Position numbers and translations under genes: made by a program. The notes beneath the pieces were generated by a model that saw only the letters and a program-made list of their open reading frames with translations, did no database searches and was not told the origin of the DNA. Below are positions 1,112-43,663 of a stretch of 43,663 bases of DNA, piece by piece. The DNA is taken from IMG/VR virus record IMGVR_UViG_3300033156_000258, positions 1-43,663 of that record, one strand, 5' to 3'. How positions within the stretch are numbered: position 1 is the stretch's first letter; each line of letters begins with the position of its first letter. Origin of the DNA: a virus.

Positions 1112-1456
1112 ATGAAACCTAAAAAGATTGCGCTGCCCGAGGCAACCGAGCCCCAATACATCACGCCCTACCTGCCCGCGGATGCGGAGCAAGATATCGA
1201 GATCTGCGAGCGGAGCGGCAAGGCGGCATTCATCAAGGTCATTGCGCAATCAGCGAATGCCGAAGAATGCAAGAACTGCGCCGGCATAGGCTTTATCTAT
1301 GTCTCATTCTGCCGGGCAGGCCCGATCAAATATCATCCGGGATCGGGCAGCATCGGCATCTGGCATGACGGCGACCATCTGCACGGCCGGGGCTGGTACG
1401 TGGTGGGCGAAACGCGCGCCTACCCATGCCCGCATTGCGGCAAGATGGGAGGATGA
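1112..1456 (+). CDS. Small Cys-rich hypothetical protein (114 aa)
   Basis: I do not recognise a family. The protein has a CxxC pair (ECKNCAG, about residues 52-58) and a C-terminal CPHCG, consistent with one treble-clef or DnaJ-like zinc site, with an aromatic, Gly-rich stretch between them. The start ATG follows the methyltransferase stop at once, and GCAGGAG just upstream is a good ribosome-binding site. It is the first of a row of small genes whose stops and starts nearly all overlap, so it is translated from the early rightward transcript. Confidence 0.75.
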   Translation: MKPKKIALPEATEPQYITPYLPADAEQDIEICERSGKAAFIKVIAQSANAEECKNCAGIGFIYVSFCRAGPIKYHPGSGSIGIWHDGDHLHGRGWYVVGETRAYPCPHCGKMGG

Positions 1457-1669
1457 GTGAAGCGCTATGCGATAACGATCCGCGGTAGGCGCAAGGAATG
1501 GTCTTTCCCCATCTGGGCCAAGCCGGAGCACGTGGAGGAGTGGCGGAAGGACGGCCTGATCGTGGACGAGGTTCTGAACGTGATCCCTAAGTGGGTTGTT
1601 GATCTGGGCCTGACCCGCCATTGGTGTTGGTTGCAGGACATCCTGTATGGCAGCCCGGAAGATGCGTGA
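1457..1669 (+). CDS. Hypothetical protein (70 aa), GTG start
   Basis: This is a short protein rich in Trp and charged residues (MKRYAITIRGRRKEWSFP at the N-terminus), of unknown function. The upstream stop at 1454-1456 is followed directly by the GTG. The ribosome-binding site GGGAGGATG belongs to the recurring junction sequence described in the findings. Its own stop overlaps the next start as TGATG. The start could instead be the ATG at 1453 in another frame, but the GTG frame keeps the gene tiled with its neighbours. Confidence 0.65.
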   Translation: MKRYAITIRGRRKEWSFPIWAKPEHVEEWRKDGLIVDEVLNVIPKWVVDLGLTRHWCWLQDILYGSPEDA

Positions 1670-1953
1670 TGGATAAGTCGCAACCGGAAGAGAGGCCGAG
1701 CGAGAGGCTATTTCGTCTGCACGAAGATCTCGCTCAGCTCAAGGATAAAAACCTGGAGCGCTCGGCAATCCTTGCATGGGAGGCCGTGTGCCTGGGTTGG
1801 CAAATCATCGAAATGACGGAAGAGGCGCAGGCAGCGAGGCCGCGCCAAGATGAAGAGATAGAGAGGTTCAGGCATATTGGAACAAAGGCATGGGCCAGGG
1901 CAAATCGCCGCAGGGCCAAGATGAATACCCTCGCCGCACAGGAGAATGAGTGA
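1669..1953 (+). CDS. Hypothetical helical protein (94 aa)
   Basis: This is a highly charged, predominantly helical protein (SERLFRLHEDLAQLKDKN near the start, a basic RRRAK stretch near the end) with no recognised domain. I chose the ATG at 1669 because it overlaps the previous stop as TGATG. A longer in-frame extension back to 1621 would overlap the upstream gene by 49 bases. Composition suggests a small soluble accessory protein of the early operon. Confidence 0.7.
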   Translation: MDKSQPEERPSERLFRLHEDLAQLKDKNLERSAILAWEAVCLGWQIIEMTEEAQAARPRQDEEIERFRHIGTKAWARANRRRAKMNTLAAQENE

Positions 1954-2207
1954 TGGAAAAAGTCGAGAGAAAAGGCCCGAAAATCTATCGTTGGGCATAC
2001 ACCGATGACAACAAAGCCATTGCCGGAGAATTCGTGCGGCTGAAGGATTATGCCAAGCTCGAGGCGGTAGCGAGGGCGGCCCGGAAGCTCCTTTGTCCCT
2101 CTCTTGAGGAGAGTGGCGTGTTTTGTGTTGTCTGCGGCACAAACATTCTGCATACGGACGCGCTGCTCAATGCGCTTGCCGCGGCGGGATATGGGGAGGA
2201 TGAATGA
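1953..2207 (+). CDS. Hypothetical protein (84 aa) with a LEAVA...LAAAGY module
   Basis: The function is unknown. Residues about 33-84 contain LEAVARAARKLLC, a CVVC pair, and the ending LLNALAAAGYGEDE. The 157-aa protein at 2401 has the same layout (LEAVAAAAHYLC ... IAAAGYAEDE), and the DNA around the two ends is nearly identical, so the two genes share a duplicated C-terminal module. The ATG at 1953 overlaps the preceding stop as TGATG, and the preceding GTG in frame is less likely. The 3' end overlaps the next gene as ATGA. Confidence 0.75.
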   Translation: MEKVERKGPKIYRWAYTDDNKAIAGEFVRLKDYAKLEAVARAARKLLCPSLEESGVFCVVCGTNILHTDALLNALAAAGYGEDE

Positions 2208-2401
2208 GCCACGATAATTACTACTGGGGAGGGCGGGGGAATTGTCCCAAGTGCGGGCGATGGGTCGGCCAGATAACGGGAACGATCAATGGCCTAGGCG
2301 AATTGGTAAAGGTCACGGGTGTTTGCAAGCATCATGGGGAAGTAGATCTCAGCGAGCAGGCATGGGATTACGACGATTTTGACCACGGGGAGGATGAGTG
2401 A
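2204..2401 (+). CDS. Small zinc-ribbon-like protein (65 aa)
   Basis: CPKCG near residue 14 and CKHHGE near residue 41 form a plausible Cys3His zinc ribbon. The C-terminus is strongly acidic (YDDFDHGEDE). Start and stop overlap neighbouring genes (ATGA upstream, TGATG downstream), which marks it as a translationally coupled member of the early operon. No function is known. Small zinc ribbons in phage early regions often bind nucleic acid or host polymerase, but nothing here proves that. Confidence 0.75.
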   Translation: MSHDNYYWGGRGNCPKCGRWVGQITGTINGLGELVKVTGVCKHHGEVDLSEQAWDYDDFDHGEDE

Positions 2402-2874
2402 TGAACGAGAAAGGATTATATCAAAAGTATAAGGTGGAGCATGCGGACGGCTCGCCCATTGATCCGCGCGCTCAATATCTGGTATTGCGCTTGGATGCCG
2501 GGGAGTATCTGTCCGCTTGTCGAGCCGGGGCGGCGGCATTTGCGGAGGCGGTTGAGCCACAAAATCCTAAGCTGGCGCAGGGCGTGAGGGACTTACTTTG
2601 TTTGCTGAAGCAGAGTGTGAGTGATGGGCGATTATCCACCCATTACAAGGCGCTGTGGGATGACTATGCCGCCCTCGAAGCCGAGAACAAGCGGCTGCTC
2701 AAGGAGCTCGACGAGCTTATTGCATGGCACGAGGGCGACGACTGTCCACGCGCCAGGCTCGAAGCCGTGGCGGCGGCGGCACACTATCTTTGCCAGATGA
2801 TGGATGGAGACTATTATCCGCTGACACGGTTGCGAAAAGCCATCGCCGCGGCGGGATATGCGGAGGATGAGTGA
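2401..2874 (+). CDS. Conserved phage hypothetical protein (157 aa)
   Basis: The N-terminus (YKVEHADGSPIDPRAQYLVL) resembles a widespread small phage protein of unknown function with a K/YxVxxxDG...YxVLxLD pattern. A helical, partly coiled-coil centre (ALEAENKRLLKELDELIAW) follows, then a C-terminal LEAVAAAAHYLC...AAAGYAEDE module shared with the protein at 1953. It therefore looks like a fusion of a common phage domain to the duplicated tail module. Both ends overlap their neighbours as TGATG. Confidence 0.8.
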   Translation: MNEKGLYQKYKVEHADGSPIDPRAQYLVLRLDAGEYLSACRAGAAAFAEAVEPQNPKLAQGVRDLLCLLKQSVSDGRLSTHYKALWDDYAALEAENKRLLKELDELIAWHEGDDCPRARLEAVAAAAHYLCQMMDGDYYPLTRLRKAIAAAGYAEDE

Positions 2875-3041
2875 TGGACGAATTTGGTGTACTGCTATTG
2901 GTTGCGGCTATGTTGGTGGCAATAGCAGGGATGCTCCTGCCCTTGCATTGGGCACCAAATCCCGTTGAGGTTAGGCGCGAGCTTGGTGGCATTGCACTGA
3001 CGTTATTCATTGTTGGTTGTATAGTTGTCTTGGGAGGATGA
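2874..3041 (+). CDS. Small two-helix membrane protein (55 aa)
   Basis: The frame from the ATG at 2874 encodes two hydrophobic segments, VLLLVAAMLVAIAGMLL (residues 6-22) and IALTLFIVGCIVVLG (40-54). A short loop containing VEVRREL separates them, so the protein should span the membrane as a hairpin. The ATG overlaps the previous stop as TGATG after GGAGGATGAG, and the stop at 3039-3041 is followed by another copy of the same junction. It lies in the early operon, far from the lysis genes, so a role in membrane association or superinfection exclusion is possible but unproven. Confidence 0.75.
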   Translation: MDEFGVLLLVAAMLVAIAGMLLPLHWAPNPVEVRRELGGIALTLFIVGCIVVLGG

Positions 3042-3044
3042 GTG

Positions 3045-3347
3045 ATGGACGCGACAAAAGCCAGGAGCATTGACTATTCAAGATTGCCGCAGCATATGAG
3101 GGGAGGGATGCAGAGATACATCGAGCAGGGCATCCCGCCGGGCGGATTCCTCGCTGCCATTCTAGCGAATGATCTAGTGCTGGCCGCTATGCGCGCCGAT
3201 GCCATAAATCAGCATCAGCTATTCGATTATGCCCATTTTCTATACAACCAGGCGCCCCGGGATTGTTGGGGATGCCAAGAGGCAATTGATGAATGGATCG
3301 AGCAGGGCGGCTTGAAAGGCATACAAGCTCACGAAAGGAGCGAATGA
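3045..3347 (+). CDS. Conserved phage hypothetical protein (100 aa)
   Basis: The pattern MQRYIEQGIPPGGFLAAIL, then NDL...ADAIN, then YNQAPRDCWG and WIEQGGL matches a small conserved phage family of unknown function that I recognise by its central RYIExGIxPGxFLxAVLxNDL core. I chose the ATG at 3045; a GTG at 3042 is also in frame. The 3' end overlaps the next gene. Members usually lie in early or replication regions, as here. Confidence 0.8.
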   Translation: MDATKARSIDYSRLPQHMRGGMQRYIEQGIPPGGFLAAILANDLVLAAMRADAINQHQLFDYAHFLYNQAPRDCWGCQEAIDEWIEQGGLKGIQAHERSE

Positions 3348-3615: not shown

Positions 3616-3978
3616 GTGACCGATCCTGACGACCGCATCCGAAGCCTGATCCTCAAGCGCCTGTATGCCCGGCGCGGCGAACCCGTCTCGCGAAGGCAGC
3701 TCCTCAGCTATGTAATCCAGCACATGCCCCAGGGCCAGCGCAATATCAGCGACCGGGATCTGCGCCGCCATATCGAATGGCTCCGCAACAACACCGATAA
3801 GGGCTCGCTCATTTGCGCTTCCGCTGGGAAAAAGGGATACTGGATCGCCCGGGACCTCGGGGATATCCTCGAGGCCTACCGCGAAGAGCGCAAGCGGGCC
3901 ATCACGCTGCTCATGACCATGAGGCGCCGCCTGCGCCGGGCTTACGCCGTTTTCGGAGGGCAGGATAGGCTTCTATGA
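3616..3978 (+). CDS. Winged-helix DNA-binding protein (120 aa)
   Basis: Residues about 1-75 read as a winged helix: helix SLILKRLYARRG, helix SRRQLLSYVIQH, recognition-type helix SDRDLRRHIEWLRN, then a wing ending in GKKGYWIARDLGDI. A basic helix (YREERKRAI, MRRRLRRAYAVF) closes the protein. This layout is common in small phage DNA-binding proteins near replication and recombination genes. The start is the GTG at 3616, just after the previous stop, and the end overlaps the nuclease gene as ATGA, so the two may act together. Confidence 0.75.
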   Translation: MTDPDDRIRSLILKRLYARRGEPVSRRQLLSYVIQHMPQGQRNISDRDLRRHIEWLRNNTDKGSLICASAGKKGYWIARDLGDILEAYREERKRAITLLMTMRRRLRRAYAVFGGQDRLL

Positions 3979-4355
3979 GCGACGATCTGCTTGCGAAAGC
4001 CATGCTCGAGGCTGTCATGCCGCGCTATCGCTCCAGGGCCGAGGCTGTATGGGCAAGCATGGGCCGGTTCATAATCGAGAATGAGCTCGATCTCGAAGTG
4101 ATCCTTACCCGCTATGAGCCGCTGGGATTCAACCTGCCCGGAGGCCGCTACACCCCCGACTTTCTCTACATCCACGAGGACGGCACCCTGACGCTGGTCG
4201 AAGTCAAGGCCTCCTCCAAGCAAAAGGGATACAGAGATAGCCGCGCCAAGCTGCGGGCTGCTGCAGCCGTTTTCCCCTGGTGCCGCTGGTTCATGGCGAC
4301 CCGCATCCCAGATCGGCAAGGCGGCGGATGGAAGCTCGAACAGATCAACGCATAG
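3975..4355 (+). CDS. PD-(D/E)XK endonuclease-like protein (126 aa)
   Basis: The core signature is complete: YTPDFLYI (about residues 58-65) supplies the PD, and LVEVKASS (about 73-80) supplies the ExK. A helix containing SRAKLRAAAAVFPW follows, as in small PD-(D/E)XK nucleases and Holliday-junction-resolvase-like phage proteins. Length is typical of a single-domain nuclease. The likely role is branch resolution or end processing in replication or packaging (family inference). It is coupled to the winged-helix gene upstream and overlaps the next gene. Confidence 0.8.
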   Translation: MSDDLLAKAMLEAVMPRYRSRAEAVWASMGRFIIENELDLEVILTRYEPLGFNLPGGRYTPDFLYIHEDGTLTLVEVKASSKQKGYRDSRAKLRAAAAVFPWCRWFMATRIPDRQGGGWKLEQINA

Positions 4356-4961: not shown

Positions 4962-5216
4962 TCATTTGGCCCTCGCGCTATCAAGCCAGGAAGCCAGAGT
5001 TTCAAGGCCAATCCATCGCTCAGCCCTGCCGGTTCCATCGCAGGCATCGCACGCCTGCCGATCGTCCCGAAGTTTGCCGGGATGATTATGCAGCACGGGA
5101 TCGGCAACATGCGCGCCGCACTCCTCGCAGGTAAATAACCCCTGCCAGCCCCTTCCCGTGCAAGCCGGGCATGGAGCCTCGATCTTGACGAAAAACTCCA
5201 CCCATTTTGTGCCCAT
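4962..5216 (-). CDS. DnaJ-type zinc-finger-like protein (84 aa)
   Basis: Two Cys clusters are visible, CPACTGRG with CEECG (about residues 16-34) and CDACDGTG (about 56-63). They resemble the CxxCxGxG repeats of DnaJ zinc-binding domains. A start at 5216 is preceded on this strand by AGGAGGGAATTGAA, an excellent ribosome-binding site. It is the last gene of the leftward unit. It has no J domain, so it is a stand-alone zinc module of unknown partner. Confidence 0.75.
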   Translation of the reverse strand: MGTKWVEFFVKIEAPCPACTGRGWQGLFTCEECGAHVADPVLHNHPGKLRDDRQACDACDGTGRAERWIGLETLASWLDSARAK

Positions 5217-5234
5217 TTCAATTCCCTCCTATGC

Positions 5235-5570
5235 TTAGAACTCATATGGATCGATCCGCTCGCCCATCTCGATCAGCTCCCGCCGGCCATCTCCGCCGCT
5301 CCGCGACCAGCCGCAGTAGCACCGCGCCAGGCCCCAATGGTTGCCACATTCGCTGCAGACCCACGCGCCGCAATAGCCGTCGAGCTCGTAGGCGCCAAGC
5401 GTCCCGCAATCCGGGCATGGATCCACTAGATAGGCCCGGCCCATCTTGCGGATGCGCCGCTTGATCCTGACCGCCTGGCGCGCCCTGCGCTGGCTTATAT
5501 GCCCATCGGCCAGCTTCGGCCCGTTCATGATCGCCTCAAGTGCATTCAGCATCGTTTCTAAGCTTGGCAT
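5235..5570 (-). CDS. Zinc-ribbon hypothetical protein (111 aa)
   Basis: The first half is a basic helical region (SQRRARQAVRIKRRIRKMG). The second half holds CPDCG, then CGAWVCSECGNHWG, and a final RCYCGW, giving at least two metal-binding knuckles. The start has AAGGGAG a suitable distance upstream and lies one base beyond the end of the upstream gene. The mix of basic helix and zinc ribbon suggests nucleic-acid binding; no family name is certain. Confidence 0.75.
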   Translation of the reverse strand: MPSLETMLNALEAIMNGPKLADGHISQRRARQAVRIKRRIRKMGRAYLVDPCPDCGTLGAYELDGYCGAWVCSECGNHWGLARCYCGWSRSGGDGRRELIEMGERIDPYEF

Positions 5571-5571
5571 G

Positions 5572-5877
5572 TCAGTCTCCCTTCATGATAATCGCTTGCG
5601 GCAACCGCTGCAGCCAGCATGATATGCTGAGCTCACTCAAGGAAGTAAAAAAGTTATGCAGCGTGCCATAATCGATTTCTTCCGCAGCCTTGCTCACCAA
5701 CAATCTTGATAGGCTCTGCTCTGGCCTCTCAATCTCAAGCATTTGATCCTCGACAAAGGCGCGCAGGGCTTCAGTTCCCTTTTGCGCGGCCTCGAGGGCT
5801 GCGAGAAAGTCGCGCCTATCGCTGGTAAGCCAAAAGAATACGGCCCAAGTTTGGAAGTTTCGCCAGCCATTATGCAT
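5572..5877 (-). CDS. Conserved phage hypothetical protein, NGWxNxxTW type (101 aa)
   Basis: The N-terminus HNGWRNFQTWAVFFWL matches the NGWxNYxTWxVxLW signature found at the start of a widespread small phage protein family of unknown function. I chose the start at 5877 because GGGAGG lies five bases upstream on this strand; an in-frame ATG at 5901 would overlap the G-quadruplex leader. The rest is helical and acidic. Confidence 0.75.
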   Translation of the reverse strand: MHNGWRNFQTWAVFFWLTSDRRDFLAALEAAQKGTEALRAFVEDQMLEIERPEQSLSRLLVSKAAEEIDYGTLHNFFTSLSELSISCWLQRLPQAIIMKGD

Positions 5878-5892
5878 TTTAGCCTCCCTCTG

Positions 5893-5907
5893 CCCACCCA
5901 CCCGCCC
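5893..5907 (-). promoter_or_regulatory. G-quadruplex motif in the leader of the 5877 gene
   Basis: On the minus (sense) strand this reads GGGCGGGTGGGTGGG: four G3 runs separated by single-base loops, the most stable class of intramolecular parallel G-quadruplex. It lies just upstream of the ribosome-binding site GGGAGG. Identical 15-mers occur at 6148-6162 and 7225-7239, all in leaders of the leftward operon. Confidence 0.7.
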
Positions 5908-5915
5908 TTGATACT

Positions 5916-6131
5916 CTAAAGCCAGCCTATGCGCCTCAGCTCCGACTCATGTACCAGGCGATCAACCGGCTGCTGACCTGGCCCAAAGAACACAAGACAT
6001 TTGAAGTTGCCATGATCATCCGGCCCATGCGCATCGATCATGTAGGGGAAGGCCTCGCCCTCAACCTCGAGGCGCGTCTCCGGATCCTTCCAAACCTTGA
6101 TCAACGGAATAGGTTGCGGCTTGCTGCTCAT
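5916..6131 (-). CDS. Hypothetical protein (71 aa)
   Basis: This is a compact beta-rich sequence (IKVWKDPETRLEVEGEAF, then FKCLVFFGPGQQPVDRLVHESEL) without known motifs. The pattern resembles a small SH3-like fold, in which a beta-barrel ends with a short helix. The start at 6131 has AGGAGG at ideal spacing, and the leader holds the second copy of the G-quadruplex motif. Position within a tight operon supports it as a real gene. Confidence 0.7.
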   Translation of the reverse strand: MSSKPQPIPLIKVWKDPETRLEVEGEAFPYMIDAHGPDDHGNFKCLVFFGPGQQPVDRLVHESELRRIGWL

Positions 6132-6147
6132 CTATTGCCTCCTACTG

Positions 6148-6162
6148 CCCACCCACCCGCCC
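6148..6162 (-). promoter_or_regulatory. G-quadruplex motif in the leader of the 6131 gene
   Basis: The same GGGCGGGTGGGTGGG 15-mer as at 5893-5907, again on the sense strand and again followed within a few bases by the ribosome-binding site (AGGAGG). The flanking bases GGGC-AG-(T/A) are also shared with the first copy, so the conserved unit is longer than the G-runs alone. Confidence 0.7.
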
Positions 6163-6171
6163 TATCCTGGC

Positions 6172-6390
6172 CTAGATGATGCCAAGGATCCTCAACGGCG
6201 ATCGATACCCATGCGGGCATACGCCGTCCGGCTCGACTATGCACCCGTCGATTGTCTCGACCGTGCCGAAGTAATCCATCTCATCGGCCAGGCCCACAAG
6301 GTCAAGATTGCTCGCCCATAGGTACTCGTCGCGTTGGCTATATCGCCTCTGCTGCCCTTCCTGCTCGGTCTGCCCAATACACTCATTCAT
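6172..6390 (-). CDS. Hypothetical protein (72 aa)
   Basis: This is an acidic small protein with no recognised domain (LDLVGLADEMDYFGTVETID in the centre). The start at 6390 overlaps the upstream stop as ATGA, and GGAGG lies upstream. The function is unknown. Confidence 0.65.
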   Translation of the reverse strand: MNECIGQTEQEGQQRRYSQRDEYLWASNLDLVGLADEMDYFGTVETIDGCIVEPDGVCPHGYRSPLRILGII

Positions 6391-6587
6391 TGCTGCTCGC
6401 CTCCGTTCTTCTCTGCCCGGATCGCCAGCTCTTCCGCCAGGTCAGCGATCAGCCCAGCAAAGAATTCCCGATCGCCTGGCCTAATCAAGGCGGAAAGCTT
6501 GTGCACATACTCCGCAATCGCTGCAGCTATGCGCTTCGACTCCATGTCCCTATGCACCCTCGGCCTCCCGCTGCTATAGCTTTCCAT
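6387..6587 (-). CDS. Hypothetical helical protein (66 aa)
   Basis: The sequence after the start is a run of amphipathic helices (SKRIAAAIAEYVHKLSALI, then FFAGLIADLAEELAIRAEK). I prefer the start at 6587, five bases after GGGAGG, to the in-frame ATG at 6605. Its start lies inside the end of the clamp-like gene, and its stop overlaps the next start as ATGA, so it is translated by coupling. The function is unknown. Confidence 0.7.
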   Translation of the reverse strand: MESYSSGRPRVHRDMESKRIAAAIAEYVHKLSALIRPGDREFFAGLIADLAEELAIRAEKNGGEQQ

Positions 6588-7209
6588 TCCCGCCTCCCTT
6601 CTCATGCCAATCCGGCATCCGACTCAAGCTCATGATCAGCGCAATGCGATCATCGCCCACGAACAAGACGCAGAAGGGGCCAACATAAAAACGCGCCGTG
6701 CCCTTCCAGCCCGTCAACGCGGCCGCCAAATACCCCGGATCTATGGGAAGCTCAGCCTCGCCCATTTCCAGACGATAGCGAACCGGCCTATTCTGGCGCC
6801 GCTTCCCATGCGGCCACGCCTGGCCATTCCGCGCCCTGAAGTGCATAGCGCCGATGTCCGCATTCCTCGCCATGAGCTCCAAGCTGCCATTGAACGCCAG
6901 CACCGCGCACGATGTCCTAAAAGCTTTCGCCGCCTGCCTGGCTGCCTTATGCAGATGGAACGGACTGAGCTCGCCCCATGCAACGCATTCTGTGAAGCAT
7001 TCGCTGATGAACTCAAGCGCTGCCTCTGCCCTCCCATCCGGCCATTGCCCGGCCTCTGGATCGCTGGCCCCTAGCAGCGCATGCAATCTATACCCATCCG
7101 CTGCCATGATATAGCCCCGGCCTTGGTGCGGCTGCTGCAGCTCTGGCCTCCCCCCTTGTCTAACGCTCTTGATTGCCCGCTTCAAGAATGCCTTATCCCC
7201 TGCCTTCAT
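6574..7209 (-). CDS. DNA sliding-clamp-like protein (211 aa), DnaN-related
   Basis: The protein carries AADGYRLHAL at residues 36-45, matching the conserved TDGxRL signature of bacterial beta clamps. The spacing of strands and helices around it (FLKRAIKSV near the start, later LAFNGSLELMARN and FYVGPFCVLFV) resembles one or two clamp domains. At 211 residues it is much shorter than a full DnaN (about 370), so it would have to form a higher-order ring or act as a decoy. Start chosen at 7209 with GGAGGG six bases upstream; a G-quadruplex lies in the leader. The alternative is a phage protein of only superficial likeness. Confidence 0.55.
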   Translation of the reverse strand: MKAGDKAFLKRAIKSVRQGGRPELQQPHQGRGYIMAADGYRLHALLGASDPEAGQWPDGRAEAALEFISECFTECVAWGELSPFHLHKAARQAAKAFRTSCAVLAFNGSLELMARNADIGAMHFRARNGQAWPHGKRRQNRPVRYRLEMGEAELPIDPGYLAAALTGWKGTARFYVGPFCVLFVGDDRIALIMSLSRMPDWHEKGGGNGKL

Positions 7210-7224
7210 TGGATGCCCTCCGAT

Positions 7225-7239
7225 CCCACCCACCCGCCC
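7225..7239 (-). promoter_or_regulatory. G-quadruplex motif in the leader of the clamp-like gene
   Basis: Third exact copy of GGGCGGGTGGGTGGG on the minus strand. It lies about 15 bases upstream of the clamp-like start, with GGAGGG between. Two other leaders in the same operon have the same element. Confidence 0.7.
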
Positions 7240-7246
7240 CGGCGCC

Positions 7247-7438
7247 CTACCGGCAGTAAAGCGCCTCGTCTTGTGCCTCCGCCTGGAACCTGCGGAAGTC
7301 GTCGGCCCCGCATGCCTCGTGATATGCCTGCCTCGTCAACGGCCAGTAGATAATCGGCTCGCCCTTGCGAATGCGCTTCCCGCACCGCGGACAATCGCTA
7401 GCATATCTGGCTCGAGTCTTATACGGATCTCCCCGCAT
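7247..7438 (-). CDS. Small zinc-binding protein, CPRCG...HEACG type (63 aa)
   Basis: Residues about 16-43 hold CPRCGKRIRKGEPIIYWP and later YHEACG, which together form a Cys2-His-Cys zinc site. The IxKGExIxYWPxTxxAxH context is common in small phage proteins of unknown role. The start at 7438 has GGAGG six bases upstream. The C-terminus is a short acidic helix. Confidence 0.75.
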   Translation of the reverse strand: MRGDPYKTRARYASDCPRCGKRIRKGEPIIYWPLTRQAYHEACGADDFRRFQAEAQDEALYCR

Positions 7439-7456
7439 CTTCGCCTCCGATCTCTG

Positions 7457-7939
7457 CTATATGTCGAAGCCCAGGCCCCGCGCCTTCAGGCTCACGAACT
7501 GCCCGGCGCCGATGATGATATGGTCAAGCACGCTGATATCAAGCAGCTTCCCAGCCTCCACTATGGCACGCGTGACCGCTACGTCCTCTGGACTTGGTGA
7601 AGGGTCCCCGCTTGGGTGATTGTGGAATACAATCATCGCCGCCGCCTCCGCCATGATCGCAGGCCGGAATATCTCGCCTACCCGGATCAATGATCCATTG
7701 ACGGAACCGTAGTAGATGCGCGGCATCCCCAACACCTGATTGCGAGTATCAAGCAGCAACACCCATAGCCCCTCTTTGATCTCGCCCGCCAATAACGGCA
7801 TGGCATACGCCGCCGCCTCTTGCTCTGAGCTGATCCGCCAGGCGCCACTATGTCGCTCCCATACCTGGCGCAGCTCCGCAAGCGCGCGCTGGTACTCCGG
7901 TCGCTCTGCAACCGGCAACACCTGTTCCTGTCCTTGCAT
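7457..7939 (-). CDS. radC: RadC-family JAB/MPN (JAMM) domain protein (160 aa)
   Basis: The JAMM metal-binding motif is complete: H106-N-H108, seven residues, S116, two residues, D119 ([15 protein letters not shown]), with an upstream Glu at 89. The usual RadC follow-on, [13 protein letters not shown], comes next. The N-terminal helix-hairpin-helix region of cellular RadC is missing and is replaced by about 45 helical residues. RadC-like proteins are frequent in phages and mobile elements and their chemistry is unsettled; some act as anti-restriction factors. It is first in the leftward operon, with GGGAGG six bases before the start and the promoter at about 7981. Confidence 0.9.
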
Positions 7940-7980
7940 GGCAAAGCCTCCCCGCTCGTTGAACGGATACCCACGCCTCC

Positions 7981-8009
7981 ATCATACAACGGAAACACGT
8001 TTCATTTTC
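7981..8009 (-). promoter_or_regulatory. Promoter of the leftward (radC) operon
   Basis: On the minus strand a near-consensus -10 box TATGAT lies at 7986-7981. Seventeen bases further up, the hexamer (GAAAAT at 8009-8004) is a poor -35, and it is covered by the 11-bp repeats at 7998-8030. A strong -10 with a weak -35 under a repeat array suggests activator-dependent transcription. Transcription would start near 7974, giving a leader of about 35 bases. Confidence 0.55.
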
Positions 8010-8030
8010 GTTACAATTCCATTACAACTT
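7998..8030. repeat. Three 11-bp phased direct repeats between divergent promoters
   Basis: Consecutive 11-mers CGTTTCATTTT, CGTTACAATTC and CATTACAACTT occupy 7998-8030 without gaps. Related arrays occur at 8633-8654 and 9516-9570. A period of 11 bp would put every repeat on nearly the same face of the helix, as expected for cooperative binding of a regulator. The array overlaps the -35 regions of both divergent promoters. Confidence 0.65.
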
Positions 8031-8064: not shown

Positions 8065-8628
8065 ATGGAAACCCAAGAGCTCCCCCCTCAATTCCAGGAT
8101 CCCCCAGGCCGATATCGCCTATGCAAGAATGGCGCCATTTTCGACAATGAAACTAAACGATTCGTGGCCGGTCCCCTAAGTAAACATAATCCCCCAGAAG
8201 TGATAGAAGCGCGCGCTAAGCAGATGCAACAAGCTAGAACGGAAAAGCAGAGGCGCCTAGTGCTGGAGCGCATCCAAGAGGCCGCAGTTAGAAGGGCTCA
8301 GGATGGCCTAAACAGGCCGCCTAGGGAGCCAGCGGACGCCATCGCATACGGAATAGCCCACCTGTACGAAAGATCGCTAGATGGCGATGAGCCCCTGCGG
8401 GACGCGGTGGCAGCGCAACGACTGGTAATCACGGTAGCGGCGCCGGAGCTGATGCCACGGGCAGGCCAAGCGGTCGATGGCGGCGCCCCGGTAATCCAGA
8501 TCAACATCTCCGGTCAGCTCGCTGGGGCCTATGCTGGCGCCCTGGCGGAGCGGTTGCGAGAGGCCGGGCAGGATCCCAGCGTGATAGATGGCGAATGGAG
8601 CGAGGCTGAAGGTGACAATGGCGCATGA
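8065..8628 (+). CDS. Candidate small terminase subunit / first late gene (187 aa)
   Basis: The N-terminus (RYRLCKNGAIFDNETKRFV) and the following helical, basic region with many Arg/Lys and Ala resemble phage proteins that precede terminase genes and may be small-subunit-like. The C-terminus is hydrophobic-to-acidic (VIQINISGQLAGAYAGALAERL). There is no clear helix-turn-helix, so this is an inference from position and general pattern. The ATG at 8065 has no ribosome-binding site and sits at the predicted transcription start; an in-frame ATG at 8029 would lie upstream of that start and inside the -35 box. Confidence 0.45.
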   Translation: METQELPPQFQDPPGRYRLCKNGAIFDNETKRFVAGPLSKHNPPEVIEARAKQMQQARTEKQRRLVLERIQEAAVRRAQDGLNRPPREPADAIAYGIAHLYERSLDGDEPLRDAVAAQRLVITVAAPELMPRAGQAVDGGAPVIQINISGQLAGAYAGALAERLREAGQDPSVIDGEWSEAEGDNGA

Positions 8629-8884
8629 ATTCCGTTACGATTTCGTTACAAACATGCCTGATGGTGAAGATATCAGCCATTATCGCAACCTTGCCGATGG
8701 CGGAGCGGCGCCACCCATGAGCCCGATCCCCCGCCAGGTGGCGCCGGCTGCCCAGGATCCCCCCCGCCGGCCGATCTCTTGGCGCCCGCAGCCAGCGACC
8801 AGCTCCCGCCTCGACCTGGAGCCCTGCCGGGTGGCGCCGGATCCCCCAGCTGGCAGGTTTGCCCTGCCGCAGGTGCGCCCGTGA
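8618..8884 (+). CDS. Pro/Arg-rich hypothetical protein (88 aa)
   Basis: The frame opens at 8618, overlapping the previous gene by 11 bases. The first 30 residues (FRYDFVTNMPDGEDISHY) look ordinary, and the remainder is Pro, Ala and Arg-rich (APAAQDPPRRPISW; EPCRVAPDPP), with repeated DNA words such as GGTGGCGCC. Low-complexity composition makes it either a short disordered protein or mostly a DNA/RNA structural region with an accidental frame. The second 11-bp repeat array lies in its first codons. Confidence 0.4.
   Translation: MAHEFRYDFVTNMPDGEDISHYRNLADGGAAPPMSPIPRQVAPAAQDPPRRPISWRPQPATSSRLDLEPCRVAPDPPAGRFALPQVRP
8633..8654. repeat. Two 11-bp phased direct repeats (second array)
   Basis: CGTTACGATTT and CGTTACAAACA follow each other directly at 8633-8654. 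They match the consensus of the arrays at 7998 and 9516. The 11 bases before them (CGCATGAATTC) match weakly. Here the repeats overlap the start of a reading frame, so coding constraint cannot be excluded. Confidence 0.55.
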
Positions 8885-9515: not shown

Positions 9516-9570
9516 AAGTACAGAATTGTTACAAAATCGTTTCAATTTGGTTACAGGAGTGTTTCATGAT
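9516..9570. repeat. Four to five 11-bp phased direct repeats overlapping the start of the 9566 gene
   Basis: From 9527 the units are TGTTACAAAAT, CGTTTCAATTT, GGTTACAGGAG and TGTTTCATGAT, end to end with period 11. A weaker unit (AAGTACAGAAT) precedes them at 9516. The fourth unit contains the ribosome-binding site AGGAG and the fifth the ATG of the next gene. Protein bound here could block translation or transcription of the receptor-binding-like gene. Confidence 0.65.
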
Positions 9571-42082: not shown

Positions 42083-42170
42083 CTATCTCGCACGCGATAT
42101 TTGGCACCTGATCAACAGGGAGCCATCCAGGCGCGACAAGAAGCATTCCCGGGCGGGCGATGGCCTCTAA
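42000..42170 (+). CDS. Small hypothetical protein overlapping its neighbours (56 aa)
   Basis: A frame from ATG 42000 (after AGGAT at five bases) runs to 42170. It overlaps the regulator by 83 bases and the initiator by 11. It fills the otherwise empty 77 bases between these genes and contains RGKKKKLAWDPNIDNYLAR and a basic C-terminus. The heavy overlap makes it uncertain. Confidence 0.4.
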   Translation: MTAIKICNGLWLIRGKKKKLAWDPNIDNYLARDIWHLINREPSRRDKKHSRAGDGL

Positions 42171-43113
42171 ATACTGGATCAAGCTATATCACGAAATGCT
42201 GGACGATCCCAAGATAGGGAAGATGCCGGATCGTCTATGCTGGCGCATGGTGCAGCTATTCCTGGTCGCTGGAGAATTGGACATGGCCGGCCTTCTGCTG
42301 ACGACCGAGGATCTGTCCTGGCGGCTGAGGATGGAGCAGACAAAGCTGGAAGCTGATCTCCTTGCGCTGCAGAAATTTGAGATCATAAGCCAGGAAGAGG
42401 GCCTATGGAAAGTCAGGAACTTCGAAAAGAGGCAAGGCCCCATGAGCGCAGCCGAGCGAAAGCGGCGCCAGCGCGAAGCCGAGAGAAGGAAGAAAGAGGC
42501 CCTGTCACGAAACGTGACGGATGATGTCACGAAGCCGTCACGAAACGTGACAGATGATGTGTCACGAAGCGTGACAAAAGACGACATAAACGGAAACAAT
42601 ATTCAAGAAAATGAATGTCACGAAATGTCACGCGTAGATAAGATAAGAATAGATAAGATAAGAGAAGAAGAGAATCACGCGCGCGCGCACGCGCACGCGC
42701 GAGGCCAACAAATTGAAGATCATGAAAAGCCGATGTCACGAAGCGTGACGGATGATGTCACGGAAGTGTCACGAAGCGTGACGCCTGCTGCTCCTGCTGC
42801 TCCTGCTGCTCCTGCTTCCAAGGGCGACATTATCCGGATCCTCGCATCCGCAACCGGCATGATGGCAATCCCCCCAAAGGAATACGATCGCATCGAGCAG
42901 ATCTGGACGCTCATCGATCAATTCGGAAATGAAAAGGTCGAGGACGCGATACGCGTCGCATTCCAGAAGTGGATCAACACGAGGTCAAAAGATGGACGAT
43001 TCTACAAAAGAACGAATCTCGGATTCATCGATTGGGCCCAGGAAATTCTGCATGGAGGAAGCCTCGAATCTGGCAAGGAATCCTTCCTTGACCAGCTCAA
43101 AAGAGGCGATTGA
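42160..43113 (+). CDS. DnaD-like phage replication initiator with an in-gene origin (317 aa)
   Basis: Residues 1 to about 100 (YWIKLYHEMLDDPKIGKM, RLCWRMVQLFLVAG, LLTTEDLSWRLRM, LQKFEIIS, WKVRNFEKRQ) match the N-terminal winged-helix domain of phage replisome organisers. Residues about 115-208 are a low-complexity linker made entirely by the iteron DNA (repeats of SRNVTDDV, then VDKIRIDKIREE, then a His/Ala run and PAAPAAPAAPA). Residues about 215-317 form a DnaD-like C-terminal domain (EYDRIEQIWTLIDQFGNEKVEDAI). It would bind its own gene, open DNA and recruit host helicase. The start overlaps the small gene upstream. Confidence 0.85.
   Translation: MASKYWIKLYHEMLDDPKIGKMPDRLCWRMVQLFLVAGELDMAGLLLTTEDLSWRLRMEQTKLEADLLALQKFEIISQEEGLWKVRNFEKRQGPMSAAERKRRQREAERRKKEALSRNVTDDVTKPSRNVTDDVSRSVTKDDINGNNIQENECHEMSRVDKIRIDKIREEENHARAHAHARGQQIEDHEKPMSRSVTDDVTEVSRSVTPAAPAAPAAPASKGDIIRILASATGMMAIPPKEYDRIEQIWTLIDQFGNEKVEDAIRVAFQKWINTRSKDGRFYKRTNLGFIDWAQEILHGGSLESGKESFLDQLKRGD
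42504..42782. other. Candidate replication origin inside the initiator gene
   Basis: Five full copies of the palindromic iteron GTCACGAARCGTGAC lie at 42504-42518, 42537-42551, 42561-42575, 42735-42749 and 42768-42782. Half copies occur at 42526, 42617, 42627 and 42757. Start-to-start spacing is 33 bp for two pairs. Between the left and right iteron clusters are an A-rich tract with the tandem 15-mer TAGATAAGATAAGAA/G (42635-42664), a probable unwinding element, and an alternating purine-pyrimidine (CG) tract at 42676-42702. The arrangement mirrors lambda ori within gene O. Confidence 0.75.
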
Positions 43114-43437: not shown

Positions 43438-43663
43438 TCCAGGCTGATGCAGCTCGCATCCCTCTGCCCGATCGATCGGTTCATTGCGTCGTCACATCCC
43501 CGCCTTATTGGGGGCTGCGCAAGTACGCCGGGGACCAGGCCGCCGGGGAGTTCCCAAACCTGGGCCTGGAGGAGACGCCGCAAGAGCATATCGAGCGAAT
43601 CGTAGCCATCTTTCGGGAAGTGCGGCGAGTGCTGCGGGATGACGGGGTGGCGTGGCTGAATTA
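43431..43663 (+). CDS. DNA methyltransferase, N-terminal part; continues at base 1 (through 1111)
   Basis: ATG 43431 opens a frame that runs to the window end and continues through the circular join in frame with 1-1111 (409 residues in total). This part encodes the catalytic motif TSPPYWGLR at about residues 22-30 and the LGLEETPQEHIERIVAIF helix. It lies seven bases inside the preceding gene. See the entry at 1-1111 for the rest. Confidence 0.9.
   Translation, partial: MLIQADAARIPLPDRSVHCVVTSPPYWGLRKYAGDQAAGEFPNLGLEETPQEHIERIVAIFREVRRVLRDDGVAWLN
43550..43663. repeat. Terminal direct repeat, right copy
   Basis: Exact copy of 1-114; see that entry. Its 5' boundary at 43550 falls inside the methyltransferase gene and shows no motif of its own, which favours an assembly overlap over a physical cohesive or redundant end. 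Confidence 0.95.

Follow-up and report, generated by a model that had tools for sequence, protein, structure and literature searches.

Little is understood of what RNA quadruplexes do naturally in bacteria, and translational control between the cistrons of phage operons is mostly discussed in terms of Shine–Dalgarno (SD) strength and coupling. By analogy, the nearest biological precedent for the locus described here is given by the Start Associated Sequences (SAS) of cluster K mycobacteriophages, for which a role in translation initiation was suggested and about half of whose sites bear 17-bp imperfect inverted repeats upstream—the ESAS (PMC3203893). SAS are short asymmetric repeats, positioned in one orientation immediately upstream of the start codons of several unrelated genes. 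The same arrangement is found in the window—the whole stretch of viral DNA analyzed here, 43,663 nucleotides in length—where a repeated asymmetric sequence lies immediately upstream of unrelated starts, always in one orientation. The composition of the two elements is different: SAS correspond to GGGATAGGAGCCC and not to a four-run quadruplex, whereas the repeat of the window consists of four G3 runs positioned 5' of a separate SD. Searching the window for GGGATAGGAGCCC with up to two deviations yields one match, which is at chance level and does not fall into a leader of the operon in question. Inverted repeats of the ESAS type are absent from the window, as only 7–9 nt separate the stop codon from the quadruplex (G4). 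In an unrelated phage, G001, hairpins accompany the G4 much as the extra inverted repeat accompanies some SAS just upstream, but these hairpins are different from and shorter than the ESAS repeat. Start-associated repeats are thus already known; new would be one built from a predicted RNA quadruplex. In the literature searched, with most subscription journals outside it, no description of a repeated quadruplex leader in phages was found.

A second comparison is offered by RNA G4s engineered into Escherichia coli 5'-UTRs, which raised translation, acted synergistically with an upstream hairpin, and lost their effect in the presence of a G4 helicase—leading to the proposal of a physical barrier (Lee et al. 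2024; PMC11087576). As in these constructs, four short-loop G3 runs are found in the window on the transcribed sense strand, 5' of the SD, and the engineered order of hairpin, G4, and SD is that of G001. The engineered elements are, however, synthetic, monocistronic, and for enhancement positioned 46 bp upstream of the SD, whereas those described here are natural, intercistronic, and 3–8 nt away from it (PMC11087576). Naturally occurring examples come from the PE/PPE transcripts of Mycobacterium tuberculosis, whose RNA G4s are reported to influence translation; they are described as inhibitory and not as a repeated intercistronic leader of the kind present in the window (PMC10801317).

Predicted quadruplex leaders of the leftward operon

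The window probably represents a phage contig in its complete form. An exact repeat of 114 bases occupies its two ends (1–114 and 43550–43663), pointing to a circularly permuted assembly with 43,549 unique bases, and two parts of one DNA methyltransferase gene seem to lie at opposite ends of the record. Large terminase, major head protein, RecT, YqaJ nuclease, and a replisome organizer are encoded.

The 15-mer GGGCGGGTGGGTGGG occurs in three exact copies within this 43.7-kb record, at 5893–5907, 6148–6162, and 7225–7239. All of them reside on the minus strand, which is the sense strand for a leftward operon, and each is followed at its 3' side, after 3–5 nt, by a GGAGG; the original prediction of three identical sense-strand motifs directly before ribosome-binding sites is hence borne out. 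This operon runs from approximately 7939 to 4962, with radC as its first gene (start at 7939) and about nine small genes thereafter, the close packing of which suggests a single transcript. The leaders had also been described as 5' leaders of one operon: they do belong to genes of the leftward operon, but they are internal leaders, situated between genes rather than at the transcript's 5' end.

In the direction of transcription, the operon begins with a RadC-like JAB-domain protein (7457–7939; Pfam PF04002, E 1.9e-38), whose leader is devoid of a G4, and continues with a putative zinc-finger protein of 63 amino acids (7247–7438; phrog_1581, E 5.9e-6), which is preceded by an 18-nt gap without G4 and ends just before the first copy. 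Here, the upstream TAG (7249–7247) is followed by 7 nt, the G4 (7225–7239), and 15 nt up to the ATG at 7209, with the SD (7217–7221) located 3 nt 3' of the G4 and 7 nt from the ATG; the junction reads TAG-GGCGCCG-G4-ATC-GGAGG-GCATCCA-ATG. The 211-residue protein behind this leader (6574–7209) has no PHROG, no Pfam match above cut-off, no tblastn homologue in phages, and no solved structure. The next gene (6387–6587, start at 6587) is overlapped by the start of a 72-residue ORF (6172–6390), which in turn ends just before the second copy. At this junction—TAG-GCCAGGATA-G4-CAGTA-GGAGG-CAATAG-ATG—the TAG (6174–6172) and the G4 (6148–6162) are 9 nt apart and 16 nt lead to the ATG at 6131, the SD (6138–6142) being 5 nt 3' of the G4 and 6 nt from the ATG. 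It precedes a 71-residue protein (5916–6131) without family match in PHROG or Pfam, behind which the third junction follows as TAG-AGTATCAA-G4-CAGAG-GGAGG-CTAAA-ATG, comprising the TAG at 5918–5916, 8 nt, the G4 (5893–5907), and 15 nt to the ATG at 5877, with the SD (5883–5887) 5 nt both from the G4 and from the ATG. The 101-residue protein encoded there (5572–5877) bears weak, sub-threshold similarity to DUF7249/phrog_871, and a tblastn search against phages returned no homologue. All of these genes lie on the minus strand. The three proteins downstream of the G4 copies are unrelated to each other, which rules out that paralogous genes brought their leaders along.

The common layout is therefore a TAG, 7–9 nt, the G4, 3–5 nt, GGAGG, and the ATG, with 15 or 16 nt from G4 to ATG. 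Only three gaps within the operon exceed 20 nt (37, 40, and 38 nt), and each of them carries the motif; the remaining junctions measure 18, 1, or 18 nt or are overlaps. Since the motif is confined to the long gaps while all others are at most 18 nt long, it gives the impression of some 20 nt inserted into a default SD leader.

Chance does not account for this pattern. On both strands of the record, the only matches to the general pattern GGGNGGGNGGGNGGG are the three copies of GGGCGGGTGGGTGGG, against 0.00 expected from dinucleotide shuffles and at most 0.015 per genome from Markov models of order 1–4. Even with the G-rich operon itself as training sequence, the model predicts 0.002–0.010 sites per 3 kb and reached three sites in none of 3000 simulations; chance and G-rich composition are ruled out as the origin of the repeats. 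The placement adds to this: by our own estimate, with the gene count rounded, a random site would fall 12–20 nt upstream of any of ~70 starts with a probability of ~0.007, and three of three would do so with ~4e-7. As to composition, the sense strand of the operon (4962–7990, minus strand) shows a strong G over C skew (36% versus 23%) that is unlike the whole genome, with 88 GGG runs versus 12 C-runs over ~3 kb.

Among RNA quadruplexes, those whose loops are a single base long rank with the most stable. Each copy of GGGCGGGTGGGTGGG consists of four G3 runs connected by one-base loops, which are C, T, and T in all three. With quadruplex energies included, ViennaRNA predicts for each of the three leaders a minimum-energy structure that contains the G4, 27–36 kcal/mol below the fold lacking it, and also prefers the G4 in the leaders of G001 and of two further viral contigs discussed below (L168 and L165). 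The predicted accessibility of the SD in the presence of the G4 is inconsistent between the three leaders of the window. An Rfam search matched the element to no known RNA family.

In the rightward operon (1112–3347), the junctions are of a different kind. The sequence GGAGGATGA(G/A)TGA occurs there six times, at junctions where SD, stop, and start codons overlap or directly adjoin each other; counted as GGAGGATGARTGA with at most one mismatch, these six copies lie at 1448–3045 (plus strand; 0.21 expected). Such an overlap of SD, stop, and start is the classical arrangement for translational coupling. The contrast between overlapping repeats on the one side and spaced G4s on the other suggests that this phage uses two standard junction types, presumably a coupled one in the rightward and a spaced one in the leftward operon.

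A phage that repeats one junction six times might also have spread another one by short-patch recombination, so that the 15-mer would be nothing but a copied start cassette—a gene-junction linker without G4 function, whose G-richness is tolerated beside the SD. Its exact identity in three copies fits this idea, as does the likeness of the copies at 5893 and 6148 beyond the motif (27 nt at 93%). The copy at 7225, however, has essentially only the 15-mer, its immediate edge, and the SD in common with the other two, meaning that the conserved core coincides exactly with the quadruplex. The same core is moreover present in the unrelated G001, and the motif is absent from 31 other viral records picked regardless of G4. 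Mere copying is therefore quite improbable in our judgment, the least probable of the readings considered here.

Recurrence in an unrelated phage

An exact scan of 2.9 million IMG/VR contigs for GGGCGGGTGGGTGGG returned 69 stretches, one of which (L051) presents the motif followed by an SD and an ATG. It belongs to phage G001 (IMGVR_UViG_3300002966_000450), a record of 39,847 bp with 45% G+C over its first 8.3 kb, in which tblastn detected no similarity to the ORFs of the window. Over the whole record, seven quadruplexes are predicted with loops of up to 7 nt—at 853, 2733, 3267, 3666, 4750, 5008, and 5972—and all seven are sense-strand sequences with an SD directly on their 3' side; a degenerate eighth copy is located at ~5651. 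As G001 was found through one exact copy of the motif, this copy does not count as independent evidence, while the other six do.

One tight copy is built as in the window, with TAA, 8 nt, GGGTGGGTGGGTGGG, 19 nt, and ATG, and has the same spacing from stop to G4. In other leaders, a hairpin is inserted between the stop codon and the G4. The stem of this hairpin is formed by CTCC/GGAG in four of the leaders and by CCTC/GAGG in a fifth, a change on both sides by which the pairing is kept. The 5' arm of several of these hairpins, CUCCUU, is complementary to the SD, and such an anti-SD-like arm would allow a switch. The variant copies mostly keep their four G-runs—those at 3666–3688 and 5972–5987 do so with differing loops—and at 5972 the last of the four belongs to the SD itself. 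The gene at 4321 carries a UUCG hairpin (GGGGAGC-TTCG-GCTCCCC) before its SD in place of a G4. G001 hence adds natural variants to the system: loop changes, an added hairpin, a hairpin replacing the G4, and a G4 overlapping the SD. A long array of TAACGATC/TAACGTTC-like units is further seen at the start of the G001 contig (L170, 1–560), upstream of the operon with the G4 leaders.

Possible roles at the cistron boundary

The presence of the same G-rich 15-mer before three unrelated genes and its recurrence in an unrelated virus make it probable that the predicted quadruplex serves as a built-in control of translation initiation. The four sense-strand G3 runs, their constant position in front of the ribosome-binding sites of three genes unrelated to each other, and the reappearance in G001 fit the shared RNA device that the original prediction had put forward as a possible attenuator or timer of translation. 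What such an element does beside an SD—insulate, enhance, or repress—might be addressed in this compact natural system of a precisely spaced, repeated G4 leader in two unrelated phages.

A ribosome stopped at a TAG covers the mRNA roughly to +15/+16 from the P-site codon, and an initiating one reaches back to about −15/−20. Together with the measured spacings, these distances would place the G4 exactly between the two ribosomes, which favors a barrier or insulator. The element would be a very stable parallel RNA quadruplex of three G-tetrads with one-base loops, located between adjacent cistrons of a polycistronic mRNA. Once folded, it would abut the leading edge of the ribosome terminating on the upstream gene as well as the trailing edge of the one initiating on the next, and might act as a physical barrier to the onward or backward sliding of post-termination ribosomes or 30S subunits. 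Translation of the downstream gene would then depend on de novo initiation at its own SD, with a rate independent of the neighboring gene. We propose such a quadruplex-based, start-associated barrier at cistron boundaries as our first choice, and quite possibly the right one, while holding it tentatively. The net effect on downstream output may be higher or lower; both directions are conceivable here, as the published sign depends on the distance of the G4 from the start (PMC11087576).

The main rival is a repressive or timed version, in which the RNA G4 competes with the 30S subunit at the adjacent SD and keeps expression of the three genes low until a helicase or RNA-binding protein of host or phage unfolds it. 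With only 3–5 nt between the 3' end of the G4 and the SD, such a competition is easily imagined, and, as cited in PMC11087576, Holder and Hartig found translation lowered by a G4 ~20 bp upstream of the start. The G001 copy at 5972 with its SD-borne G-run and the SD-complementary CUCCUU arms point in the same direction. In the window, on the other side, each of the three SDs is a strong one in an otherwise good position, the G4 can fold in each of the three copies without overlapping the SD, and among the proteins scanned there is no candidate G4 helicase or RNA-binding regulator. We regard repression or timing as rather unlikely on this balance.

The element might also act at the level of DNA—as a protein-binding site or as a non-template quadruplex or R-loop that pauses or stimulates RNA polymerase—in the manner of stoperators. 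The stoperator sites of cluster A mycobacteriophages share one orientation, and their 13-bp repressor-binding motif is GATGAGTGTCAAG. Like the copies described here, they occur as multiple sites in small intergenic gaps; as 13-bp repressor-binding DNA sites, they require no fixed distance to a start codon, whereas the G4 of the window keeps a near-constant spacing (e.g., PMC9283540). In favor of such a DNA element are the location of the copies in gaps, in one orientation relative to transcription, the identity of their C, T, and T loops, as a sequence-specific binder would need it, and an effect of non-template G4s on transcription that is stated in PMC11087576. Against it, two unrelated phages keep the element at a tight distance from the start codon, which points to translation, and in G001 the loops vary while the G-runs persist. 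Furthermore, GATGAGTGTCAAG has a single two-mismatch match in the window against a chance expectation of 0.68, i.e., nothing beyond chance. A role at the DNA level thus appears improbable.

Returning to the barrier, a more general version is that strong RNA G4s, alone or with a hairpin, serve as modular cistron-boundary elements that set each downstream gene separately and evolved in at least two unrelated phages. We consider this possible, with greater reserve than the barrier itself; if true, the synthetic hairpin–G4 translation enhancers would have a natural counterpart, present in multiple copies, in these leaders. Should the G4 insulate or enhance, it would also offer a ready-made part for the building of operons.

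Distribution of the motif and further repeats

The original prediction had proposed to look for the motif in related phages, and the outcome is divided: close relatives were not found and the best structural relative lacks the motif, while the unrelated G001 carries it. By DNA, none of 50,697 phages is a relative of the window, and in IMG/VR neither the terminase nor a two-sequence alignment of the 637-residue protein beside it revealed one. The best relative by structural genes is the podovirus MW202608, with a similar overall plan and ~23–39% identity in structural proteins; GGGNGGGNGGGNGGG is absent from it, as it is from all 31 distant viral records mentioned above, which were picked by RadC similarity.

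A scan of IMG/VR for GGGTGGGTGGGTGGG-AGG-ATG led to three leaders of G001, to L168, and to four near-identical non-coding matches, whereas the control with TCC in place of AGG gave one near-identical pair only, i.e., chance matches. L168 and L165 look like genuine single G4–SD leaders, the latter with a hairpin before the G4, and L153 is a weaker candidate. L218–L221 match the pattern of G4, AGG, and ATG and were rejected as leaders, as the ATG opens a frame of two codons; these four AT-rich viral contigs share a near-identical block, CATATGCT-GGGTGGGTGGGTGGGGGAGGGGCTAAATGCTATAATG, in which no gene opens at the ATG. Across bacterial and archaeal genomes totaling 257 Gb, 41 stretches have a GGAGG within 2–9 nt after GGGCGGGTGGGTGGG, none of which is a convincing leader of G4, SD, and start; a spread of the leader through bacterial genomes was rejected on these grounds. 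The G4–SD leader is a rare device that is repeated in the window and in G001.

Tight quadruplexes also occur in other settings. The 121-kb viral record G019 was discarded as a leader case, as its three tight G4s (L172, 2400–3510; G019:C1, ~116,400–117,510) lie in a long, apparently non-coding, hairpin-rich region. Three sets of viral contigs bear conserved, apparently non-coding blocks around GGGCGGGTGGGTGGG that are not leaders—for example, TACCCATCTA, the G4, a GC-rich stretch, and TTGTCAAGGGGG—and might represent a conserved quadruplex element. The first set comprises L007, L012, L021, L023, L027, L045, L055, L057, L058, L064, L070, L071, and others; the second L024, L025, L029, L037, and L050; and the third L004, L018, L043, L067, and others. 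In the Clostridia MAG Lapin-002__bin56 (L180, L187, L199, and L201), a dispersed repeat family with inverted-repeat arms around a tight G4 is present in many copies and both orientations, unrelated to SDs.

Two further repeats of the window deserve mention. A CGTTWCAWTTYSRTTACAA-like sequence occurs in four copies (7998–8027, 8633–8651, and 9538–9556; 0.06 expected), two of which overlap in tandem between the divergent radC (minus strand) and the gene at 8065 (plus strand); it looks like an operator. Palindromic GTCACGAAGCGTGAC units are repeated at 42500–42790 (plus strand) inside the replisome-organizer gene (42160–43113, Pfam PF09681); such a pattern would be expected from the iterons of a putative replication origin.
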